A stretch of 32,786 nt of DNA from an uncultured Prevotellaceae bacterium (GTDB lineage Bacteria; Bacteroidota; Bacteroidia; Bacteroidales; Bacteroidaceae): positions 1 to 32,786 of the forward strand of contig OMWH01000027.1 in assembly GCA_900314755.1 (NCBI GenBank), written 5' to 3'. Positions 185 through 14,164 of this stretch are shown piece after piece. The translations under genes and the position numbers were made by a program. Position 1 is the stretch's first letter. Every line of letters starts with the position of its first letter. The notes beneath the pieces are model-generated. The model was not told the origin of the DNA. It did not search any database and saw only the letters and a program-made list of their open reading frames with translations.

Positions 185-1957
185 TCATGCCTCTCCTTTT
201 CGGAAGAGGTGGGTGAAGTGTTTGTTATAGAGTTCGGAGAGTCCATGACGATTATCGATAGCCTCACCGACGACGAGCATGGTCGTGAGGGTAAGGTGGT
301 TGTCATGGACGATCTTCGCAAGGTCTTTTAGTTTGCCACGATAGATCTTCTGGTCTCCCCATGTCAGGTGATAGCAGGCAGCAACAGGAGTGTCCTCCGG
401 ATATTCCATCAGCAACTCCTTCTGTACCTCGTCGACAATGGCGGCACTGAGGAAGATACACATCGTCGACTGACTCCTGGCAAGCAGGTGCAGCTGTTCC
501 TTCTCAGGCATCGGAGTACGTCCCTCGCCACGAGTCAGGATAATCGTCTGACAACGCTCCGGGATGGTAAACTGACTGCGTAACTCGGCAGCGGCAGCCA
601 GGAAAGAGGAGATGCCTGGTGTGATATGATAGTCCATTCCCTGACGGTCGAAGAATGCCATCTGCTCTTGGATGGCACCGAAGATACAGGGGTCACCCGT
701 ATGCAGACGAACGATGTATTTCCCCTGGTCGTAGAACCTCTTCATCAGGTCACACTGCTCTTCCAGACTCATGTCTGCCGACGAGCGTACCATGGCTCCA
801 GCCTTATGACAGTCAGTGAGTTCCTTGGGAACAAGACTGCCCGCATACAGAATCAGGTCGGCACGCTCCAGCATCTTACGACCACGGACACTCACCAAGT
901 CAGGGTCACCAGGACCAGCACCCACAATCTCGATATGTCCTTTCTCCTCCCGCAGGTATTTATAGTCGATGGCAAGGGCTGCCGTCCAGTTCTTACCCTT
1001 CACCTTAGGAACGATGAGTTTTCCATGGTTAGAGCCGAGGATGGCAGCAGCCTCACAGACACTGGGAGTCCCCACATGCTTGTTGACCACATCGCTGGGG
1101 TTTGGTACCTCCACCTTCGCCAATTCCTCAGCAGAGTAAAACACCACCTCCTCGCCATAGTCCTCCAGAACATCAATGAACTCCTCATCCGCTTTCACGT
1201 CGATGGTGCAATAGTGTTTGTAGCAGGGTAATATTCCTATTCTGCTGAGTGTCTCGTCTATCTGGTCGTAGATATCCATGTAGTCATCGGGATGACTGGC
1301 AAGACCGAAACCCAAAGAAGCGATCATCGGGACGAAATGTAGTTCCAGTATTCCGGCAGGAGCACAGAGGTTGTAGGGCGACACGATGATGACAAGACTG
1401 TAATGTGCGGAATCGACCTCTGCAAGACTCTTGACGATGGTGACATGGTCGGGGAGGGTCTTCTCCAGATAGTCCGTACCCTCGTCACAGACTTCCATCA
1501 ACAAAGCTGTCGGTCTCTTATTGACGAAAGCATAGATACATTCGTTCATGTCATCCTCGCTGGCTATTGCCCAGTTGAAACGCTCCGCAAGCGTGTCAAG
1601 AGCCCATAGTCCGGCATTGTCGCTCTGCGTGGTGATGACCGCCCTTGCCCCGAGGATGGCGGCAACCTCAGAAGTGAGGTCGTTGGCACCTCCGATATGT
1701 CCGGACAACACAGAGACAGCATGCTGTCCGAAGGTGTCCACACAGACGACGGCAGGGTCCTCATGCTTATCCTTTATATAGGGAGCGATGGTGCGCACAC
1801 AGATACCCATGGCACCGATGAAGATGAAGCCGTTGAAGTTCTTCCATTGCTTGCCGACCTCGGAACGTTCTATTACCTTCGCCTTCAGTTCTCTGCACAG
1901 GTCGCTGGCGATATCCTTGCCAGCGTCACCGATTGGTATGATTGCTATTTTCTGCAT
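185..1957 (-). CDS. cbiG-cobM: CbiG-CobM fusion: cobalt-precorrin-5A hydrolase / precorrin-4 C11-methyltransferase
   Basis: A 590-residue two-enzyme fusion of the cytoplasmic corrin-ring pathway. Residues 1 to about 335 are CbiG, which opens the delta-lactone and releases the two-carbon fragment; typical CbiG features are GAMGICVRTIAP (48-59) and LSGHIGGAND (84-93). Residues 340-590 are the SAM-dependent CobM/CbiF methylase, with the tetrapyrrole-methylase motif IVGAGPGDPDLVSV near 344-357, YAGSLVP, and HTGDP(C)IFGA. The start overlaps the end of cobL by 13 bp, so the two are translationally linked. It is the last gene of the minus-strand unit that begins with cobJ-cbiC. The physical order CbiG then CobM brings consecutive steps together (C11 methylation, then lactone opening). 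The fusion is intact with no visible missing motif. Confidence 0.93.
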   Translation of the reverse strand: MQKIAIIPIGDAGKDIASDLCRELKAKVIERSEVGKQWKNFNGFIFIGAMGICVRTIAPYIKDKHEDPAVVCVDTFGQHAVSVLSGHIGGANDLTSEVAAILGARAVITTQSDNAGLWALDTLAERFNWAIASEDDMNECIYAFVNKRPTALLMEVCDEGTDYLEKTLPDHVTIVKSLAEVDSAHYSLVIIVSPYNLCAPAGILELHFVPMIASLGFGLASHPDDYMDIYDQIDETLSRIGILPCYKHYCTIDVKADEEFIDVLEDYGEEVVFYSAEELAKVEVPNPSDVVNKHVGTPSVCEAAAILGSNHGKLIVPKVKGKNWTAALAIDYKYLREEKGHIEIVGAGPGDPDLVSVRGRKMLERADLILYAGSLVPKELTDCHKAGAMVRSSADMSLEEQCDLMKRFYDQGKYIVRLHTGDPCIFGAIQEQMAFFDRQGMDYHITPGISSFLAAAAELRSQFTIPERCQTIILTRGEGRTPMPEKEQLHLLARSQSTMCIFLSAAIVDEVQKELLMEYPEDTPVAACYHLTWGDQKIYRGKLKDLAKIVHDNHLTLTTMLVVGEAIDNRHGLSELYNKHFTHLFRKGEA

Positions 1958-3189
1958 TTCAGTATTGTTATTGGATGATGGTCATTGAGTTGTATTCTGA
2001 CGGGTGGCTCCTGCTGGAGTCCTAATGCCTCGCAAGCCTCGTTCCATAGTTGCTGACTGTCAGTGGTCACCTTGGGAGCGATGACACTATTCATGACGAT
2101 GCAGCCGTCATCAGCAAGGACACTGACCACCTTCGTCATTATCTCCTTCAGATGTCCCCCATGCCCGCCAATGAAAACGGCATCAGGACGTTGTGATGGA
2201 GAATTGGCAACGGGGAATTGGCAATGGAGGAAATCGCCCATGTGGATATGGATGCCAGGGGCACCAAAGCGACGCATGTTCTCTTGGATGATAGACTCAC
2301 ACTCAGGACGGATCTCAAAGGCATCGATATGCAGATGAGGGAACAGCAGTCGCGCCTCTATCGAGATGCTTCCTGTGCAGAAGCCGATGTCCCATAGTGT
2401 ATGCCGTCTGGGAAGGTCGAGTGCCTGTAAGGTCATCAGGCGAATCGGCATTTTGGTAATCATCTTCGTCCTGCCGTCTAAGAGGGTGAAGGAACTGTCG
2501 GGGATACCGAAAGGTTTAGGAGAGCGTTGTGCGTCAAGTGTGGAGAGTATGAGACAGTTAGGGTGGGAGAACTCACACACGGCGGCTTCCTGGAGGGAGA
2601 GGGTCGTCACCCTTTCTTTCTCTGTGTTGCCGAGGTGTTCCCCCACATACATGGCATATTGGTCATAACCATACTCCAGCATCCTTTGGGCAATAGCGGA
2701 AGGGGTGTGCTCCCTGTCTGTCAGCACTCCTATCTTGTCTGCCCGTTCTATCAGGGCACGGTCGAACTCCTGCCAGGGTCTGCCGGTCAGTGAGACGATA
2801 CGCATGTCATGGTAGGGTATCACCAGACGGTGAGCCAACATCTGCAGGGAGTTGAAAGTAGGGTAGACCACTATCTCCGCATTCGGCATCTTCCGCTGTA
2901 CTGTATTGGCAAAACCGAAGAACAGCGGATCGCCACTGGCGAAAACGACTATGGATGGAAGAGTTGAAGGATGGAAGGATTGAAGTCTATATTGCTCGAA
3001 GACGGCATCAAGGGGTACGGTGATGTCAATCCACTGCGCATCAGCAGGGAGGTAGGGGGCGACAATCTCATGATGACGCTTGCCACCCGAGAATACCTTT
3101 CCGTTCTTGATGACCTCCATTACCTCAGGAGGAAAGAACGGCTTCGGATTATCCGTGATACCAATAATGATAAACTTCAATTCTTCCAT
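1945..3189 (-). CDS. cobL: CobL (CbiE-CbiT fusion): precorrin-6Y C5,15-methyltransferase (decarboxylating)
   Basis: A 414-residue protein. Residues 1 to about 200 are the CbiE tetrapyrrole methylase, with VFSGGKRHHE (33-42) and ASGDPLFFG; residues about 210-414 are the CbiT class-I SAM methyltransferase, with LWDIGFCTGSISIEA and PDAVFIGGHGG. Together they methylate C5 and C15 and decarboxylate the ring C acetate. Two short tandem repeats lie in frame inside the gene: one at about residues 67-79, in the loop before the ASGDP strand, and one at about 320-331, in the loop before the DAVFIGG strand. The first five codons are themselves part of an upstream 24-bp repeat. The start follows the cobJ-cbiC stop by 51 bp and the stop overlaps cbiG-cobM. 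Loop insertions look tolerated because all core motifs are intact. Confidence 0.92.
   Translation of the reverse strand: MEELKFIIIGITDNPKPFFPPEVMEVIKNGKVFSGGKRHHEIVAPYLPADAQWIDITVPLDAVFEQYRLQSFHPSTLPSIVVFASGDPLFFGFANTVQRKMPNAEIVVYPTFNSLQMLAHRLVIPYHDMRIVSLTGRPWQEFDRALIERADKIGVLTDREHTPSAIAQRMLEYGYDQYAMYVGEHLGNTEKERVTTLSLQEAAVCEFSHPNCLILSTLDAQRSPKPFGIPDSSFTLLDGRTKMITKMPIRLMTLQALDLPRRHTLWDIGFCTGSISIEARLLFPHLHIDAFEIRPECESIIQENMRRFGAPGIHIHMGDFLHCQFPVANSPSQRPDAVFIGGHGGHLKEIMTKVVSVLADDGCIVMNSVIAPKVTTDSQQLWNEACEALGLQQEPPVRIQLNDHHPITILKCRK
2196..2230. repeat. Short tandem repeat inside cobL (CbiT loop)
   Basis: Two imperfect copies of a GGGAATTGGCAA-type unit read on the plus strand. On the coding strand they give the low-complexity peptide HCQFPVANSPSQRP, in frame, between GDFLH and PDAVFIGG of the methyltransferase fold. 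Confidence 0.6.
2951..2987. repeat. Short tandem repeat inside cobL (CbiE loop)
   Basis: Units of ATGGAAG(A/G)RTTGAAG type are readable on the plus strand, the opposite orientation to the related repeat at 3175-3238. The coding strand gives QSFHPSTLPSI in a loop just before VVFASGDPLFFG. Confidence 0.6.
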
Positions 3190-3240: not shown

Positions 3241-4653
3241 TCACAAGTCTCTCCCAGGTTTTAGTTGTGCGGCATCATCGTAACAAAGTATCGCATTACA
3301 GAGTGTGGCGGCAAGATTACTGCCACCCTTGCGCCCTTCGACAATGATTTTGGGAATGTCACGGAAAGGCTTCACCATGTGTTTCGACTCACAGACATGG
3401 ACGAAACCCACAGGAGCGGCGATGATACCAGCAGGATGCGCCTTGCCTTTACGGATCAAGTCGCAGAGTTCCATCAGTGCCGTCGGTGCGTTACCGAAAG
3501 CAAAGAGAGCGTCAGGATGCTCCTCGACGGCAAGACGAATACCCGCTTGTGTCCGGGTGATACCCTCTGCGGAAGCCATCTCAGCCACCCGTGGGTCTTG
3601 CAGGTAACACTTCGCCTCCATGCCCAGTCGTTGTAAGGCACCTTTACGTATGCCACTGGTCACCATCGTCACATCCGTCACAAAGGTTCTCAGACTGCCA
3701 TCCTTCACCATCTTATACAGATGCTCCACAGCCCCCTCGTCGGTATAGAGAATATGCTCCATCTCAAAGTCGGCAGTGGTATGGATGGCATGCAGCAGCG
3801 CCCATTTGCGGTCAAGAGGAATGTCCTTGTCCTGCAACTCAGACTCAATACGTCTGAAACTCTGTATCATAATCTGCTGACCGGGTTTTTCATTAGAAGT
3901 GAGAGGTGAGGGGTGAGAGGTGAGGTTATACCCACGGGGGGTAATTATCTTCCCGTCCTCGATATATGACTGGGAATTACCAATGAGGATGACGGTAAAC
4001 ATATCAACCTCCTCGGGATTAAAGTCATGAAGAGTCGTCACCTTTATGTTCTGCTCTGGTCTGCCAGCCTGGCGGACAAAACCCACAGGAGTGTTTCCTG
4101 AGCGTTCCTGCAGGAAGAGTTCTTGTAAGCGGTACAGTTGCCAGTAACGCTCATGACTCTTGGGATTATAGACAGCAGTGACGAAATCACCAGTGGCGGC
4201 GGCACGGATACGACGCTCTATCGTCTCCCAAGGTGTCATCAAGTCCGAGAGAGAGATGACACACAGGTCGTGTCCGATAGGAGCCCCTAACAGTGATGCC
4301 GCTTTCTGGAAAGCGGAGATGCCAGGCAGGGAGCAGACCTCAACATCGGAACCCCGTTCTTTCCGCATCTCATAGATCAGTGGTGTCATGCCATAGATAC
4401 CAGCATCACCAGACGATATCACGACGACCGTCTTCCCCTGTTCTGCCTGTATAAAAGCCAGCTCAGCCCTCTCACGCTCTTTCTTCATCCCTGTGTCGAT
4501 ACACTCACACTGCGGAGGAATGATGGGTTTGATGAACTGGAAATAGAATTTATAGCCGACAATCACCTCTGCCTCCTTGATGGCTTCCGTTACTGCCGGT
4601 GTCATGTCCTCAGGTCCTCCAGGACCTATTCCTGCAACAATAATTTTCTTCAT
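3241..4653 (-). CDS. cobJ-cbiC: CobJ-CbiC fusion: precorrin-3B C17-methyltransferase / precorrin-8X methylmutase
   Basis: A 470-residue fusion. Residues 1 to about 240 are CobJ/CbiH, which methylates C17 and contracts the ring; motifs are VAGIGPGGPEDMTP (6-19), SSGDAGIYGM, SLPGISAFQKAA and VTAVYNPKS. Residues about 257-470 are CbiC/CobH, which moves the C11 methyl to C12 to give hydrogenobyrinate/cobyrinate; visible motifs include HTTADFEM, VTDVTMVTSGI and FGNAPTAL, then GFVHVCESK. The two enzymes are joined by a linker that is a short tandem repeat (residues about 242-253). I chose the ATG at 4653 because MKKIIVAGIGPGG is the family N-terminus and an upstream in-frame ATG would read through the divergent promoter. 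First gene of the cobJ-cobL-cbiG unit; the leader is only a few bases. Confidence 0.93.
   Translation of the reverse strand: MKKIIVAGIGPGGPEDMTPAVTEAIKEAEVIVGYKFYFQFIKPIIPPQCECIDTGMKKERERAELAFIQAEQGKTVVVISSGDAGIYGMTPLIYEMRKERGSDVEVCSLPGISAFQKAASLLGAPIGHDLCVISLSDLMTPWETIERRIRAAATGDFVTAVYNPKSHERYWQLYRLQELFLQERSGNTPVGFVRQAGRPEQNIKVTTLHDFNPEEVDMFTVILIGNSQSYIEDGKIITPRGYNLTSHPSPLTSNEKPGQQIMIQSFRRIESELQDKDIPLDRKWALLHAIHTTADFEMEHILYTDEGAVEHLYKMVKDGSLRTFVTDVTMVTSGIRKGALQRLGMEAKCYLQDPRVAEMASAEGITRTQAGIRLAVEEHPDALFAFGNAPTALMELCDLIRKGKAHPAGIIAAPVGFVHVCESKHMVKPFRDIPKIIVEGRKGGSNLAATLCNAILCYDDAAQLKPGRDL
3895..3928. repeat. Short tandem repeat forming the CobJ-CbiC linker
   Basis: Plus strand reads repeated GAGAGGTGAGG/GTGAG units. 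On the coding strand they translate to NLTSHPSPLTSNEK, precisely between the methylase and the methylmutase domains, so the repeat is the inter-enzyme linker. Confidence 0.6.
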
Positions 4654-4655
4654 AC

Positions 4656-4694
4656 TTGCTGCAAAGTTACAGAAAATTATTAACTTTGCAGCAA
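4656..4694. promoter_or_regulatory. Palindromic divergent promoter for cobJ and cobU
   Basis: A perfect 14-bp inverted repeat (TTGCTGCAAAGTTA at 4656-4669 and its complement at 4681-4694, 11-bp spacer) fills the gap between the two divergent genes. Each arm carries a -7 box TAACTTTG for one strand and a TTG at -33 position for the other. Box to ATG distance is 20 bp for cobU and 8 bp for cobJ. Confidence 0.7.
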
Positions 4695-4708
4695 AATATA
4701 AAAAAAAG

Positions 4709-5215
4709 ATGAGACGTATCATTCTGATTACTGGTGGACAACGTTCGGGTAAGAGTCAGCATGCAGAGCAATTAGCTTTGCAGTTGGCTGAGAATCCTGT
4801 TTATCTTGCCACAGCCCATGTGTGGGACGAGGAGTTCCGGCAGCGGGTGCTCAGACACCAGGAGCGTCGCGGACCTCAGTGGACGAATATCGAGGAGGAG
4901 AAGTTCCTGAGCAGACACGAGCTGACGGGGCGTGTCATCGTGATAGACTGTGTGACCTTATGGTTGACGAATTTCTTTTTTGAGAATAATGAGGTAGAAC
5001 AGACTTTGGAACAGGCAAAGGCTGAGTTTGACCGCTTCACCTCACAGGAGGCTACCTTCATCTTCGTCACCAACGAGATAGGAAGTGGTGGTGTCAGTGA
5101 GAATGCCATCCAACGGAAGTTTACTGACCTGGAAGGGTGGATGAACCAATATATCGCAGCGAAAGCTGATGAAGTGATCCTGATGGTGAGTGGAATACCT
5201 TTGAAAGTGAAATGA
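4709..5215 (+). CDS. cobU: CobU: adenosylcobinamide kinase / adenosylcobinamide-phosphate guanylyltransferase
   Basis: A 168-residue cytoplasmic enzyme that phosphorylates adenosylcobinamide and then transfers GMP to make adenosylcobinamide-GDP. Seen directly: the P-loop GGQRSGKS at residues 9-16, the region RHQERRGPQW with His50 in the position expected for the guanylylated histidine, the Walker-B-like strand VIVIDCVTLWLTN, and FVTNEIGSGGV, a CobU hallmark. The ATG at 4709 is chosen because MRRIILITGGQRSGKS is the family start; longer in-frame starts lie in the divergent cobJ gene. Its stop overlaps the cobT start (ATGA), so it is the first gene of a cobU-cobT-cobS unit transcribed from the palindromic promoter just upstream. 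Confidence 0.95.
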   Translation: MRRIILITGGQRSGKSQHAEQLALQLAENPVYLATAHVWDEEFRQRVLRHQERRGPQWTNIEEEKFLSRHELTGRVIVIDCVTLWLTNFFFENNEVEQTLEQAKAEFDRFTSQEATFIFVTNEIGSGGVSENAIQRKFTDLEGWMNQYIAAKADEVILMVSGIPLKVK

Positions 5216-6252
5216 GAACATTTAATATATCATCTCCTGATGAGACATTACGTCCCTCCATTCAGGAGAGAATTGATAACCTGAACAAGCCGAAGGGTTC
5301 GTTGGGCAGACTGGAAGAGTTAGCGATGCAGGTCTGTCTGATTCAACAGACACTGTCCCCTTCGTTAGTGCATCCCTGCCATCTGCTGTTAGGTGGTGAC
5401 CACGGCATAGAGCGGGAGGGTGTCAGTGTGTCTCCCCGTGATGTCACATGGCAGCAGATGATCAACTTCACGCATGGTGGTGGCGGTGTGAATATGTTCT
5501 GCCGTCAGCATGGTTTCACTTTGCGCATCGTTGATGTGGGGGTGGATTATGACTTGTCCAAGGTTCCTGGCATCATCCACAAAAAGATAGCCTGCGGCAC
5601 CAGAGATTTCCTTCATGAGCCTGCCATGTCGGAAGAGGAGTACGACAAGGCGATAGAGACAGGAGCCTCATTGGTTGACGAGTGTGTCGCTGAGGGGTGT
5701 AACATCCTCTGTATCGGAGAGATGGGTATTGGCAATACGTCCCCGTCCAGTATCTGGATGCATCTGTTCTGTCATCTTCCTCTGGAAGAATGTGTCGGGG
5801 CTGGAGCCGGTCTGGATCATCCGGGTATTCGTCGTAAGTATGAGGTGTTGGCAGAGTCTGTCAGTCATGCTGCCTCCTCACTGCAGACCACTCAGGATAT
5901 CCTTCGCTATTTTGGAGGTTATGAGATGGTCACCGCTATTGGTGCTATGTTAAGAGCGGCAGAGCACCATGTCATCATATTGGTCGATGGCTTTATCATG
6001 ACCGCCTGTGCCTTAGCCGCTATCCGTTTGTGTCCCGAAAGCCAGTCATATATGATATTCACCCATTGTGGTGACGAGGGTGGTCATCGGAAGATGCTGG
6101 ATGCCATGGGAGCCTCACCACTGCTTCGTCTGGGTTTCCGATTAGGAGAGGGAACGGGAGCCTTGTGTGCTTATCCTATTATTGACTCTGCTGTAAGGAT
6201 GGTTAACGAGATGAACACTTTTCAGAAAGCTAATATTACCAAATACTTCTGA
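5212..6252 (+). CDS. cobT: CobT: nicotinate-nucleotide-dimethylbenzimidazole phosphoribosyltransferase
   Basis: A 346-residue protein of normal CobT length. It makes the alpha-ribazole phosphate (or another alpha-riboside) used as the lower ligand. Visible motifs: NKPKGSLGRLEELA near the N-terminus, GGDHGIEREGVSVSP, the glycine run HGGGGVNMF, GEMGIGNTS, and LGEGTGAL with Glu313 at the position of the catalytic base in this family. It overlaps cobU by four bases and is followed by cobS after three bases, so the three are co-translated. No lower-ligand base synthesis gene (bzaA/bluB type) is visible in the window, so the base used cannot be told from here. Confidence 0.95.
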   Translation: MRTFNISSPDETLRPSIQERIDNLNKPKGSLGRLEELAMQVCLIQQTLSPSLVHPCHLLLGGDHGIEREGVSVSPRDVTWQQMINFTHGGGGVNMFCRQHGFTLRIVDVGVDYDLSKVPGIIHKKIACGTRDFLHEPAMSEEEYDKAIETGASLVDECVAEGCNILCIGEMGIGNTSPSSIWMHLFCHLPLEECVGAGAGLDHPGIRRKYEVLAESVSHAASSLQTTQDILRYFGGYEMVTAIGAMLRAAEHHVIILVDGFIMTACALAAIRLCPESQSYMIFTHCGDEGGHRKMLDAMGASPLLRLGFRLGEGTGALCAYPIIDSAVRMVNEMNTFQKANITKYF

Positions 6253-6255
6253 CCT

Positions 6256-7053
6256 ATGGAGATATCTATTGACCAGACTCACTGGTACGACCGTATATGG
6301 GCATCATTGATCTTCTTCACCAGACTTCCTTTCTGGCGATTGCATGAACCACCCAAGGAATGTTATAAGACCGTTGTGGAGCATTGGCCCTTAGTAGGTT
6401 GGCTGACGGGGGGAGCGATGGCTGCCATCCTCTATTTCGGCAGTATGGTATTGCCATACCTGGTGGTTGTTATCACTGCGATGGCGGTGCGTCTGTTGAT
6501 GACCGGTGCTCTCCATGAGGACGGATTGGCAGATTTCATGGATGGTTTTGGTGGTGGCGGGAGAGACCGTCAGCGTATTCTTGACATCATGAAAGACTCC
6601 CGTATCGGCACCTATGGTGTGCTGGGACTGGTGTTCTATGAGTTGCTGTTAGGGACGACGCTCTATTCCCTGACTCCCGAACTGGCTGCCTTGGTGGTAT
6701 TTGCCGCCGACCCCTATAGTAAGATGGTGACCAGTCAGTTGATACTGATGTTGCCCTATGCCCGTAAGGAGGAGGAAGCTAAGTCAAAGACCGTCTACAG
6801 GAAAATGGAATGGAAGGCAGGGGTGAGTCTTGCCGTACAAGGGCTCCTCCCCATGGCTGCGTTCCTTTATCTGACCCGTCTGCCATGGACGATGATTATC
6901 TTTATGCCTTGTCTGGTGATGTATTTCCTTTACCTGCTTATCCGTCAGCGGCTACAAGGGTATACCGGTGACTGTTGCGGTGCTGTCTGCCTGTTGGTGG
7001 AACTGACTGTCTATCTGGTTGTGTGCAGTTTAGTAACACATCCACTGATATAA
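6256..7053 (+). CDS. cobS: CobS: adenosylcobinamide-GDP ribazoletransferase
   Basis: A 265-residue integral membrane protein that joins adenosylcobinamide-GDP to alpha-ribazole(-phosphate), completing the nucleotide loop. Family signs are FFTRLPFWR near residue 20, GALHEDGLADFMDGFGGG (the metal/phosphate-binding DGLAD..DG motif), the KDSRIGTYG segment, and GYTGDCCGA near the C-terminus. Several hydrophobic segments are present (about 48-75, 120-145, 185-235, 245-262). It is the last gene of the cobUTS unit. Its 3' end overlaps the convergent cbiB gene by 24 bp, and no hairpin terminator separates them. Confidence 0.94.
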   Translation: MEISIDQTHWYDRIWASLIFFTRLPFWRLHEPPKECYKTVVEHWPLVGWLTGGAMAAILYFGSMVLPYLVVVITAMAVRLLMTGALHEDGLADFMDGFGGGGRDRQRILDIMKDSRIGTYGVLGLVFYELLLGTTLYSLTPELAALVVFAADPYSKMVTSQLILMLPYARKEEEAKSKTVYRKMEWKAGVSLAVQGLLPMAAFLYLTRLPWTMIIFMPCLVMYFLYLLIRQRLQGYTGDCCGAVCLLVELTVYLVVCSLVTHPLI

Positions 7054-7941
7054 GATGATGAGTATGATCATCAGCACTTCAGCCATCCTGTTGATACGGA
7101 TGGCTTTTTTCATGTCACTCGTGTCCAGCAGTTTTTCATTTTCCCCAATGAAGGGTTTGTCAAAACGCTCCCCGAAATAATAATGAGGCCCCCCGAAACG
7201 ACAATGCAGGATGCCTGCGAGGGCAGCCTCAGGATAGCCACTGTTGGGACTGGCATGGTGACTACCGTATTTCCATACGAAACCAAAGAGGTTCCATTTC
7301 CCTGAGACGATAACCATCAACAGGGCGGTAAGACGTGCAGGGATGAAATTGACAATATCGTCGATCCTTGCGGCACAACAGCCAAAGTCCTTGTAGCGCT
7401 CTGTGTGATAGCCAATCATGGAGTCAAGGGTGTTGACCATCTTATAGGCAAGCATGCCAGGTGTTCCTAACAAGGCAAACCAGAACAGAGGGGCTATCAC
7501 ACCGTCGCTCAGGTTCTCTGCCAAGGTCTCCAATGCCGCTGTCCTTACCTCCTGTGCCGAAAGCTCTGAAGTGTCCCTTCCTACGATGCGTGCCACCTGT
7601 TTCCGCCCTTCGTCCAGAGACCTGTCCACGGCGAGGAATACTTGTCGTACTTCCCGGATAAGGGTCGTTCCTGCCAGACAGAAGAAGATGATGATGACAT
7701 TGAGGATGGGCAGATAACGGTTGAGCAGCCAACCGGCTGTAAAAACAAAGATGATGAGAACAAGAGCCAGCAGTGCTCCTTTCAGCATGCGGTGTCTTCC
7801 TTTGTTCAGACGATGCTCTCCCCATGCTATCATCTTCCCAAACCATACCACGGGATGGGGGAGACATGAAGGGTCACCCAGCAGCAGGTCCAGTGTCCAA
7901 CCTCCCAGTAGGGGTAATATGGCAATCAGGATATCAGGCAT
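7030..7941 (-). CDS. cbiB: CbiB: adenosylcobinamide-phosphate synthase
   Basis: A 303-residue membrane protein that attaches aminopropanol (phosphate) to adenosylcobyric acid. Seen: GGWTLDLLLGDPSCLPHPVVW at the N-terminus (read in pieces: LDLLLGDP and HPVVWFGK are family hallmarks), ETLAENLSDGVIAPLFW, KMVNTLDSMIGY and SPNSGYPEAALAGIL. Four or five hydrophobic segments fit an inner-membrane enzyme. It is the last gene of the cbiA-cobQ-cbiB unit and its start overlaps the end of cobQ by 8 bp. Its 3' end overlaps cobS tail to tail. No sign of damage. Confidence 0.94.
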   Translation of the reverse strand: MPDILIAILPLLGGWTLDLLLGDPSCLPHPVVWFGKMIAWGEHRLNKGRHRMLKGALLALVLIIFVFTAGWLLNRYLPILNVIIIFFCLAGTTLIREVRQVFLAVDRSLDEGRKQVARIVGRDTSELSAQEVRTAALETLAENLSDGVIAPLFWFALLGTPGMLAYKMVNTLDSMIGYHTERYKDFGCCAARIDDIVNFIPARLTALLMVIVSGKWNLFGFVWKYGSHHASPNSGYPEAALAGILHCRFGGPHYYFGERFDKPFIGENEKLLDTSDMKKAIRINRMAEVLMIILIILYQWMCY

Positions 7942-9403
7942 GGTGACTGATTATTTGATATACTTTCTCCACATCCACATATTGACGGATATGGTCGGCA
8001 AGACGGTTGTATTGCTCCTCTTTGAAAGCATGGTAGTCAAAGGGGGTGCTGTCCTTAGCCAACTGATCGGCAAAGGGCTTCAAAAGATAGTCGATGAAAG
8101 AGGTGTTGTCGAGAATGCCATGGACATAGGTACCCATACAGTGGTCGTCCACCAGGTAACCGTCTTCCGTGCCATCCTGCAAGTGCAATAGGGGAGACGG
8201 AGTTTCCAAAGGTGTCGTGATACCTTGGTGAATCTCGTAACCTTGTCCATATTCACAGGTCACCTGCCGGGTTGTCTTCTCACCATCGATGGTGGTGGTG
8301 ACAGGTAACAGTCCCAGTCCTGGTATACACTCAATATCTCCTTCCGTATGGTGAGGGTCACAGACCTCACGTCCCATCATCTGATATCCTCCGCAGATAC
8401 CCAGTACAGTGGCACCACGCCGACGAGCCTTGATGATTGCCTCTGCCATGCCGTTGCGCCGTAAATGATACAGGTCATCAATCGTTGACTTGGAACCTGG
8501 CAGGATAATGATATCAGCATCCTCGATATCTGACGGGTTACTGGCATAGTATAGATGTATGCGAGGGTCCTGCTCCAACACGTCGAAGTCAGTAAAGTTA
8601 CTCATGTGTCGCAGAAGGACGACGGCACAGTTTAATGAGGTGCCTTGTGCATGGTGCGCTTTATGTTCCAGCGACACGCTGTCCTCTTCCTCGATATGGA
8701 TGTCGGTGAAGTAGGGAAGGACACCCAGTACAGGGATATGACACAGATTCTCAATGATTTCAATACCTTCTTGGAAGAGTTGAATGTCACCACGGAACTT
8801 ATTGATAATAATCCCCTTAACATGTTTCCTCTCTTCTTCGGTCAAGAGCATGATACTGCCATACACACTGGCAAAGACACCCCCTCGGTCAATATCGGCA
8901 ACAAGGATGACATCAGCACCTGCATATATTGCCATGGGCATATTCACCAAGTCGACTTTCCGAAGGTTGATCTCGGAGATACTGCCTGCTCCTTCCATCA
9001 CAATAGGGTTATATTGGGAGGCAAGACGGTCGAAAGCCTCATGAACAGCTTGACGGAGATATTCCCTTCCTTCATGACGGAAATAACTGCCTGCCGATTG
9101 ATTGCCTACTGGTTTGCCGTTCAACACCACTTGGGACGTGTGGTCAGACTGTGGCTTTAATAAGATAGGGTTCATATCCGTATGACAGGGTATGCCTGCA
9201 GCCTCAGCCTGTACAGCCTGGGCACGTCCTATCTCCAGTCCTTCTGGTGTGGCATAGGAGTTAAGCGACATGTTCTGCGCCTTGAAAGGAGCGGGGGAGT
9301 AGCCGTCTTGTCTGAAGATACGGCAGAATCCTGCGGCAATCACACTCTTGCCGACATCACTGCCAGTACCTACGAACATCAGTGGGTGTAAATATGTTTT
9401 CAT
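7934..9403 (-). CDS. cobQ: CobQ/CbiP: adenosylcobyric acid synthase (glutamine-hydrolysing)
   Basis: A 489-residue cytoplasmic amidotransferase that amidates the b, d, e and g side chains of adenosylcobyrinate diamide. N-terminal dethiobiotin-synthetase-like ATPase domain: P-loop variant GTGSDVGKS (13-21), KAQNMSLNSY, QAEAAGI and MNPILLKP. C-terminal class-I glutaminase-like domain: LPGSKSTIDDL, CGGYQMMG with the nucleophile cysteine, and GTYVHGILDN with the histidine. Full length compared with the family. Its start lies 26 bp downstream of the cbiA C-terminal frame, the spacer being a short tandem repeat, and its stop overlaps cbiB. Confidence 0.95.
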   Translation of the reverse strand: MKTYLHPLMFVGTGSDVGKSVIAAGFCRIFRQDGYSPAPFKAQNMSLNSYATPEGLEIGRAQAVQAEAAGIPCHTDMNPILLKPQSDHTSQVVLNGKPVGNQSAGSYFRHEGREYLRQAVHEAFDRLASQYNPIVMEGAGSISEINLRKVDLVNMPMAIYAGADVILVADIDRGGVFASVYGSIMLLTEEERKHVKGIIINKFRGDIQLFQEGIEIIENLCHIPVLGVLPYFTDIHIEEEDSVSLEHKAHHAQGTSLNCAVVLLRHMSNFTDFDVLEQDPRIHLYYASNPSDIEDADIIILPGSKSTIDDLYHLRRNGMAEAIIKARRRGATVLGICGGYQMMGREVCDPHHTEGDIECIPGLGLLPVTTTIDGEKTTRQVTCEYGQGYEIHQGITTPLETPSPLLHLQDGTEDGYLVDDHCMGTYVHGILDNTSFIDYLLKPFADQLAKDSTPFDYHAFKEEQYNRLADHIRQYVDVEKVYQIISHHA

Positions 9404-9406
9404 CTC

Positions 9407-9436
9407 TCTAAACTCTCAACTCTCAACTCTAAACTA
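9407..9436. repeat. Short tandem repeat in the cbiA-cobQ spacer, including the cbiA stop
   Basis: Plus strand reads repeated CTCAACT/CTAAACT units. On the minus strand these are GAGTTGA/GAGTTTA; the cbiA stop codon TAG at 9431-9429 is formed inside this repeat. Confidence 0.6.
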
Positions 9437-9986
9437 AATAAAGGTGTGTGTAACTTGCCAACACATTATTATATATAAGGACGGGTGTGTCCACGGGATT
9501 CCCTTTGGCATCATAGACTTGCGTGACACTCTTGGGAGTCTCCCCCATGAACTGAGTGTAGTGGAACTCATGTCCCCTGTATTCCTTACCATCCAAGACG
9601 AAGCGGCGATAGCCTAATGTCAATCTGCGGTCTGCTTTCCGTGCCGTAATCTGGTAGGGAAGTACTCCACACATCGGAAACTCCCCCTCATCGGTTACTA
9701 TTGACTTACAGAGATACATCATCCCTCCACATTCGGCGATGATGTGTCCGCCCCGTTCCGCATATTCTCTGATGGCATGGCGAGTCCTCTCTGCCTTGAC
9801 CAACGCCTGCAAATGCTTTTCAGGATAACCTCCTGGCAGATAGAGTAAGTCAATTCCCTCCAGATGAGGAATCTCTGTTTCCGGATCAAAGAAACAGACA
9901 TGCTGGAATGAGTCAATCACCTCTTGATAAAGAAAAGAGAACGACTCACTATTCCGTGCTATCAGAACGTTAAGAGTCTTTCCCAT
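9429..9986 (-). CDS. cbiA: CbiA, glutaminase half (C-terminal part of cobyrinate a,c-diamide synthase)
   Basis: A 185-residue frame carrying only the glutamine amidotransferase domain of CbiA. Seen: LNVLIARNSESFSF at the N-terminus, which in intact CbiA follows the inter-domain linker; LPGGYPE (50-56); AECGGMMYLC with nucleophile Cys86; GHEFHY; and SYTHLY with His181. It is in the -1 frame relative to the ATPase half, overlapping it by 25 bp. An AGGAG lies 8 bases before its ATG at 9986, so independent or coupled initiation is possible. Alternatively a single lost A in the GGGAAAG run at 9984-9978 has broken one gene. The C-terminus ends just after the catalytic histidine because the stop is inside a short repeat. 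Confidence 0.85.
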   Translation of the reverse strand: MGKTLNVLIARNSESFSFLYQEVIDSFQHVCFFDPETEIPHLEGIDLLYLPGGYPEKHLQALVKAERTRHAIREYAERGGHIIAECGGMMYLCKSIVTDEGEFPMCGVLPYQITARKADRRLTLGYRRFVLDGKEYRGHEFHYTQFMGETPKSVTQVYDAKGNPVDTPVLIYNNVLASYTHLYLV

Positions 9987-10615
9987 CTCACTGTCTCCTC
10001 TAATAAATGAATAATGTCCTGGTCCTCTGGCATCGAACTATAGTCCAGTCCTAAGTAGCGGGAACCTTGTTCGAGGGAAGTCCTCTTGGGCAGATAGCCC
10101 AGGCACTCCACACCTTGTTCCTCACATACTTCTTGTAACATACGGAAATGTTTCCCAGACCCTACCTTATTGAATATGATGCCACAGAACTGGATGTCTT
10201 TGCGGAAGTTCAGGAATCCAGACAACAAAGCAGCCGTGGAATAGGCTGCCGACTTGGCATCGATGACTAATACGACAGGGATGTCCAGGACACTTGCTAT
10301 CTCTGCCGACGAGCCTTTGTCCTTGTCATAACCGTCAAAGAGTCCCATCATTCCTTCTACGACACATACATCTGCGTCTTTGCCATAGCGTTCAAAGAGT
10401 TCACGGACATGTTTTGGTGTCGCCATGAACGTATCGAGGTTGATGGATGGTCTGCCGCAAACATTCTCATGAAACTTGGTGTCGATATAGTCGGGACCGC
10501 ACTTGAAAGGCTGAACGCGATACCCCTTCTGTGTCATCAAAGCCATCAGCCCCCGGGCAATGGTTGTCTTGCCCGAGCCACTATGGGGTGCTGCTATGAG
10601 AAACTTGGCGTTCAT
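9962..10615 (-). CDS. cbiA: CbiA, ATPase half (N-terminal part of cobyrinate a,c-diamide synthase)
   Basis: A 217-residue frame holding the ATP-dependent domain of CbiA/CobB, which activates the a and c carboxylates. Seen: P-loop HSGSGKTT (11-18), QPFKCGPDYIDTKFH, NLDTF, VVEGMMGLFDG, the IIFNKVGS strand and GYLPKR. The frame ends with ...RWERLLTF and TGA, right where the glutaminase domain should begin. Intact family members are single chains of roughly 430-460 residues; the two halves here sum to about 394 if joined. It is the first gene of the cbiA-cobQ-cbiB unit, divergent from the riboswitch operon. Its ATG sits five bases after a TACTTTTG promoter box. Confidence 0.9.
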   Translation of the reverse strand: MNAKFLIAAPHSGSGKTTIARGLMALMTQKGYRVQPFKCGPDYIDTKFHENVCGRPSINLDTFMATPKHVRELFERYGKDADVCVVEGMMGLFDGYDKDKGSSAEIASVLDIPVVLVIDAKSAAYSTAALLSGFLNFRKDIQFCGIIFNKVGSGKHFRMLQEVCEEQGVECLGYLPKRTSLEQGSRYLGLDYSSMPEDQDIIHLLEETVRWERLLTF

Positions 10616-10671: not shown

Positions 10672-10679
10672 TACCTTTG
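10672..10679 (+). promoter_or_regulatory. -7 promoter box (TACCTTTG) for the riboswitch operon
   Basis: TAnnTTTG match immediately before the cobalamin aptamer, so the transcript would start near 10684. No clear TTTG at -33. Confidence 0.5.
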
Positions 10680-10683
10680 CAGC

Positions 10684-10850
10684 CGGAAAAGGCAATCTGG
10701 CGGTTGATACTGCCTGATGTAAGGGAATCCGGTGAGAGTCCGGAACTGTACCTGCAGCTGTAATCCTCCTTGAATGGTTTGCTTGTATAACGCCACTGAC
10801 GAATGTCGGGAAGGTAAAGCAGACTGAGGAAAGTCAGAAGACCTGCCATC
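10684..10850 (+). promoter_or_regulatory. Cobalamin riboswitch
   Basis: Conserved parts are present in the right order: AAGGGAATCCGGTGAGAGTCC (about 10721-10741; GGTG..A..TCC core), CCTGCAGCTGTAA (10751-10763), GCCACTG...TCGGGAAGG (10792-10814) and the B12 box AAGTCAGAAGACCTGCC (10831-10847). GGCA near the 5' end can pair with the terminal TGCC to close the structure. B12-bound RNA is expected to lower expression of the downstream receptor operon. No U-tract terminator is visible before the ATG at 10903, so translational control is more likely than attenuation. Confidence 0.95.
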
Positions 10851-10902
10851 CATCTTTGGTAAGCGCGCTCAGGAATAAGCGTTGCGGAAAAACGACATCG
10901 TT

Positions 10903-13011
10903 ATGAAGAAATGGGTTTTTGGGCTGGTGTTGTCATGCACGGCTCAGACACAAATGGCACAGAATGTTTTGATGACAGACTCTATTCAGGAGGTTGTCGT
11001 GACAGGTACTGGCACTCAGCATCTGCTCAAGGATGCTCCTGTGCAGACAGAAGTCATCAGTGGGAGACAGTTGCAGCAATATGCCGGCAAGAGCATCGAG
11101 GATATTCTCTCGGGACTGACGGCAAGTTTTGCCTTCAACGAGAACGACATGGGTTCTCATCTGCAGATGAACGGACTGGGAAACAGTTATGTACTGATTC
11201 TCATTGACGGTCGCCGACTGCATGGTGACAACGGTGGTGAGAATGACCTCTCCCTCATCGACCCTCATAACATTGAGAAGATAGAGATAGTGAAGGGAGC
11301 CTCGTCGGCACTCTATGGTAGTGACGCTATCGCCGGTGTTATCAATATCATTACCAAGAAACATCGTGAGCAGGGGGTGATGGTGGAGAATACCAGCCGT
11401 TTCGGCTCTTACGGAGATATCCGTCAGCATAACGGTATTGCCTTGAATTTCGGGAAGTTCTCTTCCTATACCAATTTTCAGTTACAGCACTCTGACGGTT
11501 GGCAGAACACCAGTGAGGAAGCACTCTCGCAGACAGAGTATCATATCACGGACTCACGGAACAAGACCGTCAACCGTCATACTAACTGGCAGATTGCTGA
11601 GCATCTCACTTACCAGCTGACTCCCAAGATTGAGCTCTATGCCGACGGCAGTATCTATTGGAAGCGTATCTATCGCCCCTGTGGCAAGCATCCCGGTGTG
11701 GATGTCAAGACCTATGATATGCAATACAATAACGCATCGGTATCGGTAGGTGGAAAATGGAAACTCAATGAGACAGATGTGATTACCCTGGATGCTGACT
11801 GGAAACGGCATGCCTATAAGTATGTCTATACGGACACCACACTGACTGACGGATACGTGAACGGACGCTTCACCAACTATTATCCGTATTTCCCCGGTGA
11901 CGTGGATTTGCAAAGTGACCAGCGGCTGACCCATATCACCCTGAAAGGTGTGTTTAGATTACCCTATCAGCAACAGCTGAGCGCAGGATTCGATTATCGC
12001 TATGACTGGTTAGAGGCTCCGATGAGAGTTAATGGTGGAAAAGCAACGGATAATACCCAGGCATTGTATGTGCAGGACGAGTGGGCACTCCTTAACCCGT
12101 TGTACCTGACAGCAGGACTTCGACTGACACGTAATGAGGGATTCGGTACCCGGCTGACTCCTAAACTCTCTGCGATGCTGAAGGTCAACGACCTGCGGTT
12201 AAGAGCTACATGGAGTCAGGGCTATAAGACTCCCACACCTAAGGAACTGCACTATCAGTATGTGCGTAATATGAACGGGGTGCTCCTCTATCTCGGAAAT
12301 AGTGATCTGAAGGCACAGACCTCCAACTATTTCGGACTCAGTGCGGAATATAGTATTGGCAATCTGACAATGACGCTTTCTGGTTATTATAATAAGGTGG
12401 ATAATATGATTGCGCTGGTGACGATACCAGCGAGTGAGGCACCAGGTGATCTGATTGTCCAGTACGACCCAAGGAGAGTGCGCCAATACCAGAACATGGA
12501 GGATGCCAAGACCTATGGTGTTGACTTCACGGCACGTTATCAGACCAAGCATTTCACGGTAGGAGGGTCATATAGTTATTTGGACTCCAAGGCGCATCAG
12601 TATGACACGGAAGATGAAGTCATGAAAGAAGTCACCATTGACGGTATGGCACACCATAAGGCAAACTGGTATGCGACATGGAACCATGACTTCACGAAAT
12701 GCTATCATCTTGGCATCGGTATCTATGGCCGTATGTCTAGTAAACGGTATTATCAGGTGGACGGTGACGGCAAGGGCTATCAGATATGGAGACTTTCGAC
12801 AACCCATCAGTTTGGAAAGAACTACCGCTTAGAGGCAGGTGTCGACAATATCTTCAATTATGTGGACAAGACACCGCATGGACTCCATCTGGGGACCACA
12901 ACGCCAGGGACTACTGTCTATGCGTCATTGACTATCCGTTTCAACAAAGGAAAGAAACTCACAAACAAATATAAGTATAACTTAAATCAAAGAAACAATG
13001 AAGAAAATTAA
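10903..13011 (+). CDS. btuB: BtuB-like TonB-dependent outer-membrane receptor (first copy)
   Basis: A 702-residue receptor directly under the B12 riboswitch, so its cargo is almost certainly a corrinoid. N-terminal signal peptide (MKKWVFGLVLSC...), TonB-box-like EVVVTGTG, plug domain with LYGSDAIAGVINIIT, then a beta-barrel whose last strand is SLTIRF. The ATG at 10903 is preferred to an in-frame TTG at 10882 because it begins the signal peptide. Oddly, 22 residues follow the expected C-terminal aromatic of the barrel (from NKGKK to NNEEN) and overlap the next gene by 14 bp. No BtuF/BtuC/BtuD transporter genes are next to it, so inner-membrane transport must be encoded elsewhere. Confidence 0.9.
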   Translation: MKKWVFGLVLSCTAQTQMAQNVLMTDSIQEVVVTGTGTQHLLKDAPVQTEVISGRQLQQYAGKSIEDILSGLTASFAFNENDMGSHLQMNGLGNSYVLILIDGRRLHGDNGGENDLSLIDPHNIEKIEIVKGASSALYGSDAIAGVINIITKKHREQGVMVENTSRFGSYGDIRQHNGIALNFGKFSSYTNFQLQHSDGWQNTSEEALSQTEYHITDSRNKTVNRHTNWQIAEHLTYQLTPKIELYADGSIYWKRIYRPCGKHPGVDVKTYDMQYNNASVSVGGKWKLNETDVITLDADWKRHAYKYVYTDTTLTDGYVNGRFTNYYPYFPGDVDLQSDQRLTHITLKGVFRLPYQQQLSAGFDYRYDWLEAPMRVNGGKATDNTQALYVQDEWALLNPLYLTAGLRLTRNEGFGTRLTPKLSAMLKVNDLRLRATWSQGYKTPTPKELHYQYVRNMNGVLLYLGNSDLKAQTSNYFGLSAEYSIGNLTMTLSGYYNKVDNMIALVTIPASEAPGDLIVQYDPRRVRQYQNMEDAKTYGVDFTARYQTKHFTVGGSYSYLDSKAHQYDTEDEVMKEVTIDGMAHHKANWYATWNHDFTKCYHLGIGIYGRMSSKRYYQVDGDGKGYQIWRLSTTHQFGKNYRLEAGVDNIFNYVDKTPHGLHLGTTTPGTTVYASLTIRFNKGKKLTNKYKYNLNQRNNEEN

Positions 13012-14164
13012 ATTCTTAATGATTGCTATGATGGCATTCGTCACCAGTGCCACATTTACTGCGTGTGGTGATGATGACAATAGCAGTAACAACAACAAAC
13101 GTTCAAATTACGACCGCTATCAGGAGACAGTGAATGGCATTGTCAACAGTCAGAAGAGCAGTGACAAAGTCATTCTGGTAGTTGCCTTCGGTTCTACCTG
13201 GGAACAGGCTTATGACACCTTCGACAAGGTGGTGGCTGACTATAAGAGCCAGTTCAGTGGCTGGGATGTGTATCTTTCCTTCTCTTCCGCCATCTGTATC
13301 AACAATGCACGTGCCGGTGAGAATGTAGCACCACGTGATTACTTCGATCCGGAGCACTGGTTGACCGCCATTGGTCTCGCTGGCTATAAGCAGATTGTCG
13401 TACAGTCATTGCAGGTGATTCCCGGTGAGGAGTATCGCCGTGTTCGTGACACTTATGTTAAGGACTTCATGAACAACCGTAACGGTGACTTCACCGATGC
13501 ATATATGAAGAGTCTCGACCTGAATGTCGTAGTAGGTACTCCACTGATGGCAGAGGAGAGTGATGCACAGGCACTTGCCACTGTTCTGAATAACGAACCT
13601 GATATCAAGGCTGCTGTCAATAAGGGTATTGTCGCTTTCATGGGTCATGGTAATCCTGAGGGTTATGACTACTATGGTGGTAACATCCGTTACCTGCAGT
13701 TGGAAGACGCACTCCGTAACCTCAACAAGAGCTACTATGTAGGTACTGTTGATATGAAAGAGACATACGCAGAGGATGTGCTGGCTCACATTGGAGGCGG
13801 CAAGTTCGATTATCAGGTTGGTGATATGGGAAAAACCTCTTACTATGACAAGAATACAGCCACCAAGGCACAGCTCTACCCGTTGATGTCTATTGCCGGT
13901 GACCATGCTCATAATGACATGGCTGATCCGGAAGACCCGGAGAGCTGGTACTCTTTGTTTAACGATGCTGGTATTGAGACAGAGGCTTACGAGACCAATT
14001 TCACAGAGGCATGTTGGAAAAAGTATAAGAGTGGTGATGAGTATATCCCTGCCCTTGCAGAGCGTGCCAAGGTTCGTGCCTTGTGGATGAACCACACCCG
14101 TGAGGCTATTAAGAAGCTGGGTACCCCCGATGCGTTGTCTACTCCAACCACAGCATCTGAGTAA
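12998..14164 (+). CDS. cbiK: CbiK-like cobaltochelatase as an outer-membrane/surface lipoprotein
   Basis: A 388-residue member of the CbiK (class II anaerobic sirohydrochlorin cobaltochelatase) family. Residues 1-23 are a lipoprotein signal ending in FTAC; Cys23 is followed by GDDDNSS, an acidic stretch like the lipoprotein export signal that sends Bacteroidota lipoproteins to the cell surface. The enzyme domain starts near 57: VVAFGST (61-67), MGHGNP with His217, GTVDMKE (249-255) and SIAGDHAHNDMA with His303. CbiK metal ligands are two histidines and a glutamate; here the family 'GTVE' glutamate is Asp252. The segment between 252 and 303 is longer than in cytosolic CbiK. It overlaps the first receptor gene and precedes the second, all under the riboswitch. 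It might insert cobalt, store a metal or tetrapyrrole, or remove metal. Confidence 0.88.
   Translation: MKKIKFLMIAMMAFVTSATFTACGDDDNSSNNNKRSNYDRYQETVNGIVNSQKSSDKVILVVAFGSTWEQAYDTFDKVVADYKSQFSGWDVYLSFSSAICINNARAGENVAPRDYFDPEHWLTAIGLAGYKQIVVQSLQVIPGEEYRRVRDTYVKDFMNNRNGDFTDAYMKSLDLNVVVGTPLMAEESDAQALATVLNNEPDIKAAVNKGIVAFMGHGNPEGYDYYGGNIRYLQLEDALRNLNKSYYVGTVDMKETYAEDVLAHIGGGKFDYQVGDMGKTSYYDKNTATKAQLYPLMSIAGDHAHNDMADPEDPESWYSLFNDAGIETEAYETNFTEACWKKYKSGDEYIPALAERAKVRALWMNHTREAIKKLGTPDALSTPTTASE

Follow-up and report, generated by a model that had tools for sequence, protein, structure and literature searches.

What would a chelatase of the cobalamin pathway do outside the cytoplasm, next to receptors of the outer membrane? 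The question is raised by a 32,786-nucleotide (nt) stretch of DNA (the window), which makes up the whole of contig C37 in a draft genome of 3.0 Mb (94% complete) from an uncultured Prevotellaceae bacterium. In the window a cobalamin riboswitch heads a run of three genes, encoding a TonB-dependent receptor, an exported lipoprotein of the CbiK family and a second TonB-dependent receptor. Based on computed gene content, export signals, gene order, riboswitch placement, conservation of the catalytic triad and early pathway genes that were not found, we propose that the lipoprotein is a surface-exposed, catalytically competent cobaltochelatase with which a truncated anaerobic B12 pathway begins, a proposal to which we give about an even chance. 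The locus is made up of the following elements.

10673-10864, + strand: cobalamin riboswitch RF00174, full-length match (77.8 bits, E 9.7e-18), heading the receptor-CbiK-receptor run
10903-13011, + strand: TonB-dependent receptor 1 ("BtuBa"), barrel E 3.7e-43, plug E 1.9e-24
12998-13011, + strand: 14-nt stop/start overlap of the genes for receptor 1 and the CbiK lipoprotein
12998-13066, + strand: predicted signal peptide with lipobox FTAC and lipid Cys23
13067-13078, + strand: acidic stretch GDDD after Cys23, resembling an export signal by its sequence
12998-14164, + strand: exported CbiK-family class II chelatase lipoprotein, 388 amino acids (aa), ATG start, PF06180
14244-16322, + strand: TonB-dependent receptor 2 ("BtuBb"), plug and barrel by Pfam, 79 nt 3' of the CbiK gene

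The riboswitch, which a first-pass annotation of this DNA had named and the RF00174 score upholds, is the sole Rfam match at gathering score in the window. It lies directly 5' of receptor 1, for which the ATG at 10903 is the preferred start (the mechanical open reading frame (ORF) begins at TTG 10882). The lipoprotein matches the Pfam CbiK family over profile positions 1-261 of 262 (E 5e-34, 118 bits with the cut-off at 26.2) and no other Pfam family at E 0.001. The 262 model positions correspond to about 315 residues in this protein, and its score of 86.3 bits falls well short of the 400-bit cut-off of the NCBIfam CbiK equivalog NF047852. Three structures in the PDB match at E 0.1, namely FetB (9b86, E 4.2e-23), top by single sequence and by profile, 2xvx and 1qgo, the latter two being, we assume, CbiK of Desulfovibrio and Salmonella. 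Residues E145, H217 and H303, which are putative ligands of the metal, align with the CbiK triad of 2xvx and of Salmonella CbiK, where the counterparts are presumably the metal ligands E89, H145 and H207. This E/H/H triad is intact in 79 of the 81 rows of a CbiK tree. The only two exceptions, L098 (genome G235) and L099 (G107), are exported CbiKs in which Met replaces the ligand Glu; both adjoin receptor 2 in genomes without a match to the corrin marker CbiD, the tree joins their triad losses, with a long-branch warning, and the two proteins are perhaps binding proteins only.

Is the protein really exported? The first-pass annotation had described a CbiK-family lipoprotein with Cys23 followed by GDDDN, probably exposed at the surface, and both statements hold: PF06180 and the FTAC lipobox confirm the first, and the conservation of the signal argues for the second. 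The lipid Cys is invariant in nine of nine aligned sequences, a lipobox was recognised in 95 of the 97 CbiK lipoprotein homologues examined, and a net acidic charge of at least 2 over the six positions after the Cys occurs in 88 of 95 CbiK lipoproteins, compared with 1 of 37 BtuF-like lipoproteins (38 such controls, taken from the fetched loci, were examined and 37 counted). The best-known members of the CbiK family are cytosolic, and one might suppose that an ordinary cytosolic cobaltochelatase has been mis-sorted by prediction, or that an internal start yields two forms. A GTG codon at residue 45 of the window protein and a Met between Cys and core in 30 of 95 homologues would be compatible with this, but no ATG from which a second, cytosolic product could start occurs between signal and core of the window protein, the soluble homologues carry Sec-type signals of their own, and the lipobox and acidic counts just given speak for true export; we regard mis-sorting as extremely improbable, close to negligible. 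The acidic stretch CGDDDN fits the surface lipoprotein signal of Bacteroides, S(D/E)3 after the lipid Cys, as described in the available text of PMC6222051, which makes surface exposure of the lipoprotein probable.

How constant is the arrangement? Ninety-nine distinct loci with a CbiK lipoprotein were compared; many of the loci found in these searches come from metagenome-assembled genomes (MAGs) of the rumen. Receptor 1 lies directly upstream of the lipoprotein gene in 94 of the 95 loci with enough upstream sequence, and the two genes overlap by 14 nt in 67 loci, 17 nt in 8, 20 nt in 5 and 11 nt in 4; such adjacency and overlap indicate that the arrangement is not due to chance. In at least 51 of 83 loci receptor 2 is one of the three genes that follow on the same strand; this is a lower bound, since the tolerance of 60 nt for overlaps failed to register the window itself. 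It is thus less constant than receptor 1, and the near-invariant unit is a pair rather than the co-inherited trio that the first-pass annotation had suggested looking for in other genomes; the first two members of that trio do travel together, the third does so less regularly. A cobalamin riboswitch lies just 5' of receptor 1, on the same strand, in 33 of the 34 loci of the genus that were scanned, the exception being that of P. koreensis (L052). This count includes L046, L061, L076 and L081, where the riboswitch slightly overlaps the mechanical ORF start, and L062, with a 153-nt overlap, which was counted by eye; L050, which lacks receptor 1, was scanned but excluded. Outside the genus, a riboswitch precedes receptor 1 in L145, L152, L214 (P. 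somerae) and L215 (P. levii), none was found before it in L135 and L136, and in L148 none stands directly before it. At least one corrin or cobamide gene occurs in 80 of the 99 fetched stretches, and several loci run receptor 1, CbiK lipoprotein, receptor 2, CbiHC, CbiET, CbiGF and CbiJD consecutively.

Gene pair, acidic export signal and riboswitch together mirror BtuB-BtuG of Bacteroides thetaiotaomicron as the available texts describe it (PMC10404256, PMC12751083). BtuB-BtuG and BtuH, J, K and L of that species likewise combine riboswitch operons, a TonB receptor and surface lipoproteins, several of which bind finished cobamides; in the three main texts on this system that were searched, the words chelatase and CbiK are absent. 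The window shares with this system the constant pairing of a receptor gene and a surface-type lipoprotein gene. The lipoprotein might then be no enzyme but a cobamide-binding lid, a BtuG-like protein on a CbiK fold that captures finished corrinoids without catalysis. Conservation of the triad in 79 of 81 rows exceeds what a binding role would need, and such a role leaves unexplained why genomes with CbiD show no other CbiK or CbiX. CbiK folds, moreover, bind flat tetrapyrroles without a lower ligand, and on balance we find a pure binding lid decidedly unlikely.

Does the exported protein replace the chelatase that the corrin pathway requires? The source genome holds one CbiK-family gene, and neither a CbiX nor a second, cytosolic CbiK was found in this 94%-complete draft. 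Among 299 genomes of the genus, the CbiK family occurs in 124 and CbiD in 121: 111 genomes have both, 13 only CbiK, 10 only CbiD and 165 neither (Fisher p 4e-54, uncorrected for kinship). A set of 46 CbiD-positive genomes at least 90% complete (five of them 6-10% contaminated) and 13 CbiD-negative genomes was read closely. CbiK is present in 45 of the 46, and the N-termini show that all 45 have a form with a signal peptide, either the lipoprotein (CbiKLP), a soluble form of Sec type, or both. In 44 of the 46 an exported CbiK and no cytosolic form is seen; G252 alone also has a cytosolic one (L030). The assertion of the first-pass annotation that an exported CbiK cannot feed B12 synthesis is therefore doubtful, since the exported form is the only one seen in these 44 genomes. 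CbiX-model matches occur in 13 of the 59 genomes; all 11 in CbiD-positive genomes coincide with CbiK matches, and no CbiX away from CbiK was found in the 46. Genomes G018, G032 and G080 have only a Sec-type CbiK, which suggests that extracytoplasmic position, not surface display as such, may be what matters.

Some details qualify these counts. In G293 a signal-like stretch is internal to a longer ORF and no Met immediately precedes it; the protein was counted as exported. Two items were left unclassified, a CbiK fragment of 101 aa in G236 and one weak match in G228, and the second strong CbiK of G382 is exported too. The high-scoring CbiKs of the genus had been considered as a cytosolic class; this was rejected when the N-termini of nearly all of L005-L030 showed Sec-type signals, L030 being the cytosolic member of that group. 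In G275 (L094) the CbiKLP gene is split by a frame break, with the signal on the first piece and a cbi cluster around it, and the break may be either an assembly error or a real loss. G087 has CbiD, HemC and a strong tetrapyrrole methylase match, yet no CbiK or CbiX match; the other nine genomes with CbiD only are all less than 90% complete.

Where would the ring come from? The left third of the window carries corrin fusions and cobamide genes, as follows.

185-1957, - strand: CbiG-CbiF fusion (corrin ring synthesis), NCBIfam
1945-3189, - strand: CbiE-CbiT fusion, NCBIfam
3241-4722, - strand: CbiH-CbiC fusion, NCBIfam, the earliest corrin-pathway enzyme seen in the source genome
4577-7053, + strand: nucleotide-loop genes, with CobT at 5212-6252 by Pfam; 4577-5215 and 6256-7053 are, going by their sequence, presumably CobU and CobS
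7030-7941, - strand: CbiB, Pfam
7934-9403, - strand: presumably CbiP, named from its sequence
9429-9986 and 9962-10615, - strand: CbiA as two overlapping ORFs, with GATase_3 and CbiA domain respectively, Pfam

CbiD is present in the source genome, with CbiJ-D on contig C27. HemC, the one of HemA to HemD that the search covered, was not found there, and a search for PF00590 did not find CbiL, the C20 methyltransferase. That search gave three tetrapyrrole-methylase matches, CbiF, CbiH and one on contig C24 that we take to be RsmI, and on this assignment CbiH is the earliest visible corrin enzyme in the genome. The same pattern extends across the close-read set: the search for HemC succeeded in 4 of the 46 CbiD-positive genomes and failed in the other 42; it also succeeded in 2 of the 13 CbiD-negative ones and in 11 of 14 control genomes. 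Nor was HemC found in G116, assembled as one contig, or in G060, assembled as two, the latter also without a CbiL-grade match. CbiL-grade scores (above 140 bits) occur in 6 of the 46, and a divergent CbiL, as in Porphyromonas loci, could score lower. Single absences are somewhat doubtful, as the gene search, with its loose first pass, failed to list the CbiE part of the CbiE-T gene in the window.

The 42 genomes in which HemC was not found would also suit a metal exchange, in which iron (or nickel) is removed from scavenged siroheme-like rings before cobalt is inserted. Strong matches to a possible SUMT methylase occur in few of the 46 among the matches listed (E to 1.7e-32), siroheme-class rings are plausibly available in gut and rumen, and an exported CbiK adjoins a CobN-like protein (1238 aa, PF02514) in L102 and ORFs of similar length in L059, L065, L100, L101 and L104. 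Demetallation by the window protein is, however, hypothetical, and the ORF lists of the window contain no CobN-like partner; we judge the exchange highly improbable.

We return to external cobalt insertion. An exported, triad-intact protein that is the sole CbiK or CbiX found, a corrin pathway and the failure to find HemC are most simply accounted for by cobalt insertion outside the cytoplasm followed by import through a receptor. With no HemC found, the cell is not seen to make a tetrapyrrole ring. It would instead scavenge a reduced tetrapyrrole, probably of the sirohydrochlorin or factor III class. The lipoprotein would act as a catalytic lid on receptor 1, an idea owed to the lid precedent of BtuB-BtuG as given in the available text of PMC10404256, and would bind the ring and insert Co2+ outside the cytoplasm. 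The resulting cobalt isobacteriochlorin would be handed to receptor 1, while receptor 2, BtuF-like binding proteins and FecCD permeases might import the ring or related corrinoids. CbiH, CbiE/T, CbiG/F, CbiJ/D and the later enzymes would then complete the cobamide, and the B12 riboswitch would presumably shut the set off when B12 is sufficient. In genomes without CbiL, either the ring would be factor III-like or another, still unrecognised enzyme would methylate C20; where neither HemC nor CbiL is seen, import would require a ring of the factor III class, trimethylated beforehand. We infer the metal, the direction of the reaction, the substrate and the hand-over. Metallation of scavenged tetrapyrroles before import had been one of several options offered by the first-pass annotation, and it is the one that the genomic comparison favours. 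That an early committed step of B12 synthesis takes place outside the cytoplasm, with an enzyme-lid metallating a foreign ring and the cell importing the product, falls a little short of an even chance in our estimate. Equally tentative, and leaning slightly towards the negative, is the wider claim that such a hybrid of salvage and synthesis, in which the importer is part of the pathway, is common in rumen and gut Prevotella and in Porphyromonas relatives.

Beside CbiJ-D on contig C27 (L045 10019-17437, - strand) lies a group of further genes, encoding a third TonB receptor, a pair of FecCD permeases and a pair of BtuF-like binding proteins, together with a DUF5074 protein whose start resembles that of a lipoprotein. 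This group is a candidate for the remainder of the import route.

What weighs against this proposal? Several observations do, beginning with the receptors. Both ORFs flanking the lipoprotein carry TonB plug and barrel domains, so that the first-pass annotation was right about two TonB receptors, but the BtuB-like identity it gave them is insecure. Among NCBIfam models, receptor 1 scores best with a family of hemin receptors (159 bits, cut-off 317) and receptor 2 with the B12 receptor (152 bits, cut-off 600); the BtuB model TIGR01779 (cut-off 599.7) scores 126 bits with receptor 1 and 152 with receptor 2, in a comparison that did not take in known Bacteroidota BtuBs. The nearest solved structure for both is the colicin I receptor (Cir), and the two proteins appear as similar to siderophore and heme receptors as to BtuB. 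The nearest characterised and solved relative of the lipoprotein is likewise FetB, discussed, in the portions of the literature available, for heme and Mn-porphyrin. FetB/IhtB of Porphyromonas gingivalis (PDB 9b86; receptor IhtA, transporter IhtCDE) is also a CbiK-family lipoprotein with a TonB receptor, and the window lipoprotein shares its lipoprotein signal, CbiK domain and adjoining receptor. The coupling of a receptor to a CbiK-like outer-membrane lipoprotein is thus not the new arrangement that had been supposed, since IhtA with IhtB/FetB precedes it in the accessible part of PMC10913741, where the Iht system is called hardly characterised.

The window protein could accordingly serve heme or iron acquisition, as a FetB/IhtB-type reverse ferrochelatase or heme binder at the surface, with the link to B12 secondary. 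IhtB is proposed to take iron from heme (available text of PMC10913741 and PMC6460266) and is termed a putative ferrochelatase or reverse ferrochelatase (PMC13227078, as available), FetB is said, at second hand in the part of PMC13402209 at our disposal, to make Mn-protoporphyrin, and the hemin-family match of receptor 1 points the same way. Set against this are the B12 riboswitch in 33 of 34 loci, a CbiK presence that tracks CbiD over 299 genomes, receptors and CbiK that adjoin cbi genes, and 46 CbiD-positive genomes in which no CbiX was found away from CbiK. Disruption of a B. fragilis cobalt chelatase gene, furthermore, left heme-iron use unaffected, according to unpublished data quoted in the available text of PMC6460266. 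FetB/IhtB is discussed there and elsewhere for heme iron and Mn-porphyrin and, in the text available, not for B12 entry, whereas the window version stands under a B12 riboswitch in a corrin cluster. We consider a heme role rather unlikely, if worth serious weight.

The remaining difficulties concern gene content. Most of the 46 genomes, and the source genome too, lack a CbiL-grade match, so that Co-factor II by itself would find no way into the pathway in the cytosol. Ten of the 121 CbiD-positive genomes of the genus have no CbiK match and 13 of the 124 CbiK-positive ones no CbiD match. Nor does localisation follow HemC in any simple fashion. Beyond the genus, 374 genomes of the order gave a CbiK match in 36, above cut-off in 31; CbiD is present in 29 of the 31 checked, without a match in G507 and G620, and HemC is positive in 16 of 38 genomes checked. 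Among the 28 outside-genus genomes with a strong CbiK, 15 are HemC-negative and have exported forms only, and 13 are HemC-positive, with a cytosolic CbiK in 5 and exported forms only in 8. Genus and order taken together, a cytosolic CbiK occurs in 6 of 16 HemC-positive and in 0 of 61 HemC-negative genomes (p 3e-5, uncorrected). The 16 exclude G310, G417, G670 and G184, with weak CbiK, and G087 and G008, without a CbiK match; the 61 exclude G256, G259 and G290, whose N-termini were unread, and HemC-negative, CbiD-negative genomes without a strong CbiK, and include G050 and G084, only 78% and 68% complete. In the 81-CbiK tree the cytosolic state needs three changes, which gives two to three independent contrasts; with so few, the correlation between localisation and HemC is not significant once kinship is considered and by itself is no proof. 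Ten of the 16 HemC-positive, CbiK-positive genomes, moreover, have an exported CbiK only (G156 and G277 within the genus; G323, G373, G462, G535, G585, G621, G633 and G661 outside), which does not simply fit, and G507 has a cytosolic CbiK but no CbiD match. G373, G462, G535 and G633 also show short extra CbiK-model matches of 124-126 aa that may be CbiX.

Gene context draws a clearer line. Of the six with a cytosolic CbiK, those of G377 and G252 were annotated by Pfam. In G377 the genes after the cytosolic CbiK are CbiMN, CbiQO with a SirC-like domain, HemA, HemC and CobA-HemD, and in G252 the cytosolic CbiK stands beside HemL-like, HemC-CobA-HemD, HemA and CbiQO-SirC genes; in most of the HemC-negative loci opened, TonB receptors lie near the exported CbiK. 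Both states occur within the P. somerae group (family f79; genera g81 and g164), G377 and G639 being HemC-positive with a cytosolic CbiK, and G463, G591 and P. somerae itself (G536) HemC-negative with an exported one.

How does external cobalt insertion compare with what has been described before? Salmonella CbiK (PDB 1qgo/2xwp) belongs to the same family, aligns at the E/H/H positions and is tied to the corrin pathway; it is cytosolic, and its substrate is made in the same cell. DvCbiKP of Desulfovibrio vulgaris (PDB 2xvx), whose triad also aligns with the window protein, is reportedly an exported, periplasmic CbiK, as Lobo is said to have described in 2008; it has no surface lipoprotein signal and no TonB receptor partner, and a second, cytosolic CbiK exists alongside it. 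Shelton et al. (PMC6461909, as available) defined tetrapyrrole precursor salvagers, which likewise have the corrin pathway without ring-precursor genes, and list P. gingivalis as lacking the steps to precorrin-2; three salvagers tested respond to 5-aminolevulinic acid (ALA), and outer-membrane uptake or external metallation is not proposed in the text available. The nearest printed precedent found is one sentence in a gene list on a rumen MAG (PMC12654859), which credits sirohydrochlorin cobaltochelatase with the transport of sirohydrochlorin as well as its association with cobalt and refers to a Desulfovibrio paper; in the part accessible, export signal, receptor, riboswitch and missing precursor genes are not invoked. 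Targeted searches of open-access literature, in the titles, abstract openings and portions of text they covered, yielded no other proposal of external cobalt insertion for B12. An exported CbiK with a receptor is thus already known, and what would be new, if the mechanism holds, is the pathway step.

What are the implications? The 42 CbiD-positive genomes in which HemC was not found leave the start of their ring unexplained, and the counterpart of this gap in P. gingivalis has reportedly been called 'the enigma of cobalamin', a phrase that recurs in 13 papers naming this species and is said to go back to Roper in 2000. An external cobaltochelatase coupled to import would be a concrete answer. 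If true, it would explain the corrin pathway in Porphyromonas-type bacteria without precorrin-2 synthesis, make such species a third class, intermediate between producers of B12 and auxotrophs, and predict that metal-free isobacteriochlorins are exchanged by cross-feeding in the rumen and the gut. It would also suggest that FetB/IhtB originated as a corrin enzyme and so offer a new reading of a periodontal family of heme-binding proteins.

Two further features of these loci may be recorded. CbiA is divided into two ORFs not only in the window but likewise in L080, L086, L093 and L095, and is a single ORF of 433-458 aa in L053 and L056. A second recurring gene set places a Sec-type exported CbiK beside an ORF of 1238-1290 aa (L065 258-8647, L059, L100, L101, L102 and L104), the L102 ORF being the one checked and found CobN-like; most such sets have a TonB receptor. 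CobN belongs to a late stage of the aerobic route, and the corrin genes here are of the CbiD/CbiG type, for which reason CobN-like proteins were set aside as cobalt inserters. The set also includes an exported-looking protein of 427-454 aa, with no Pfam match in L065, L049 and L102 and no PDB match in L065, and riboswitches adjoin its CbiK or receptors in L061 and L134.

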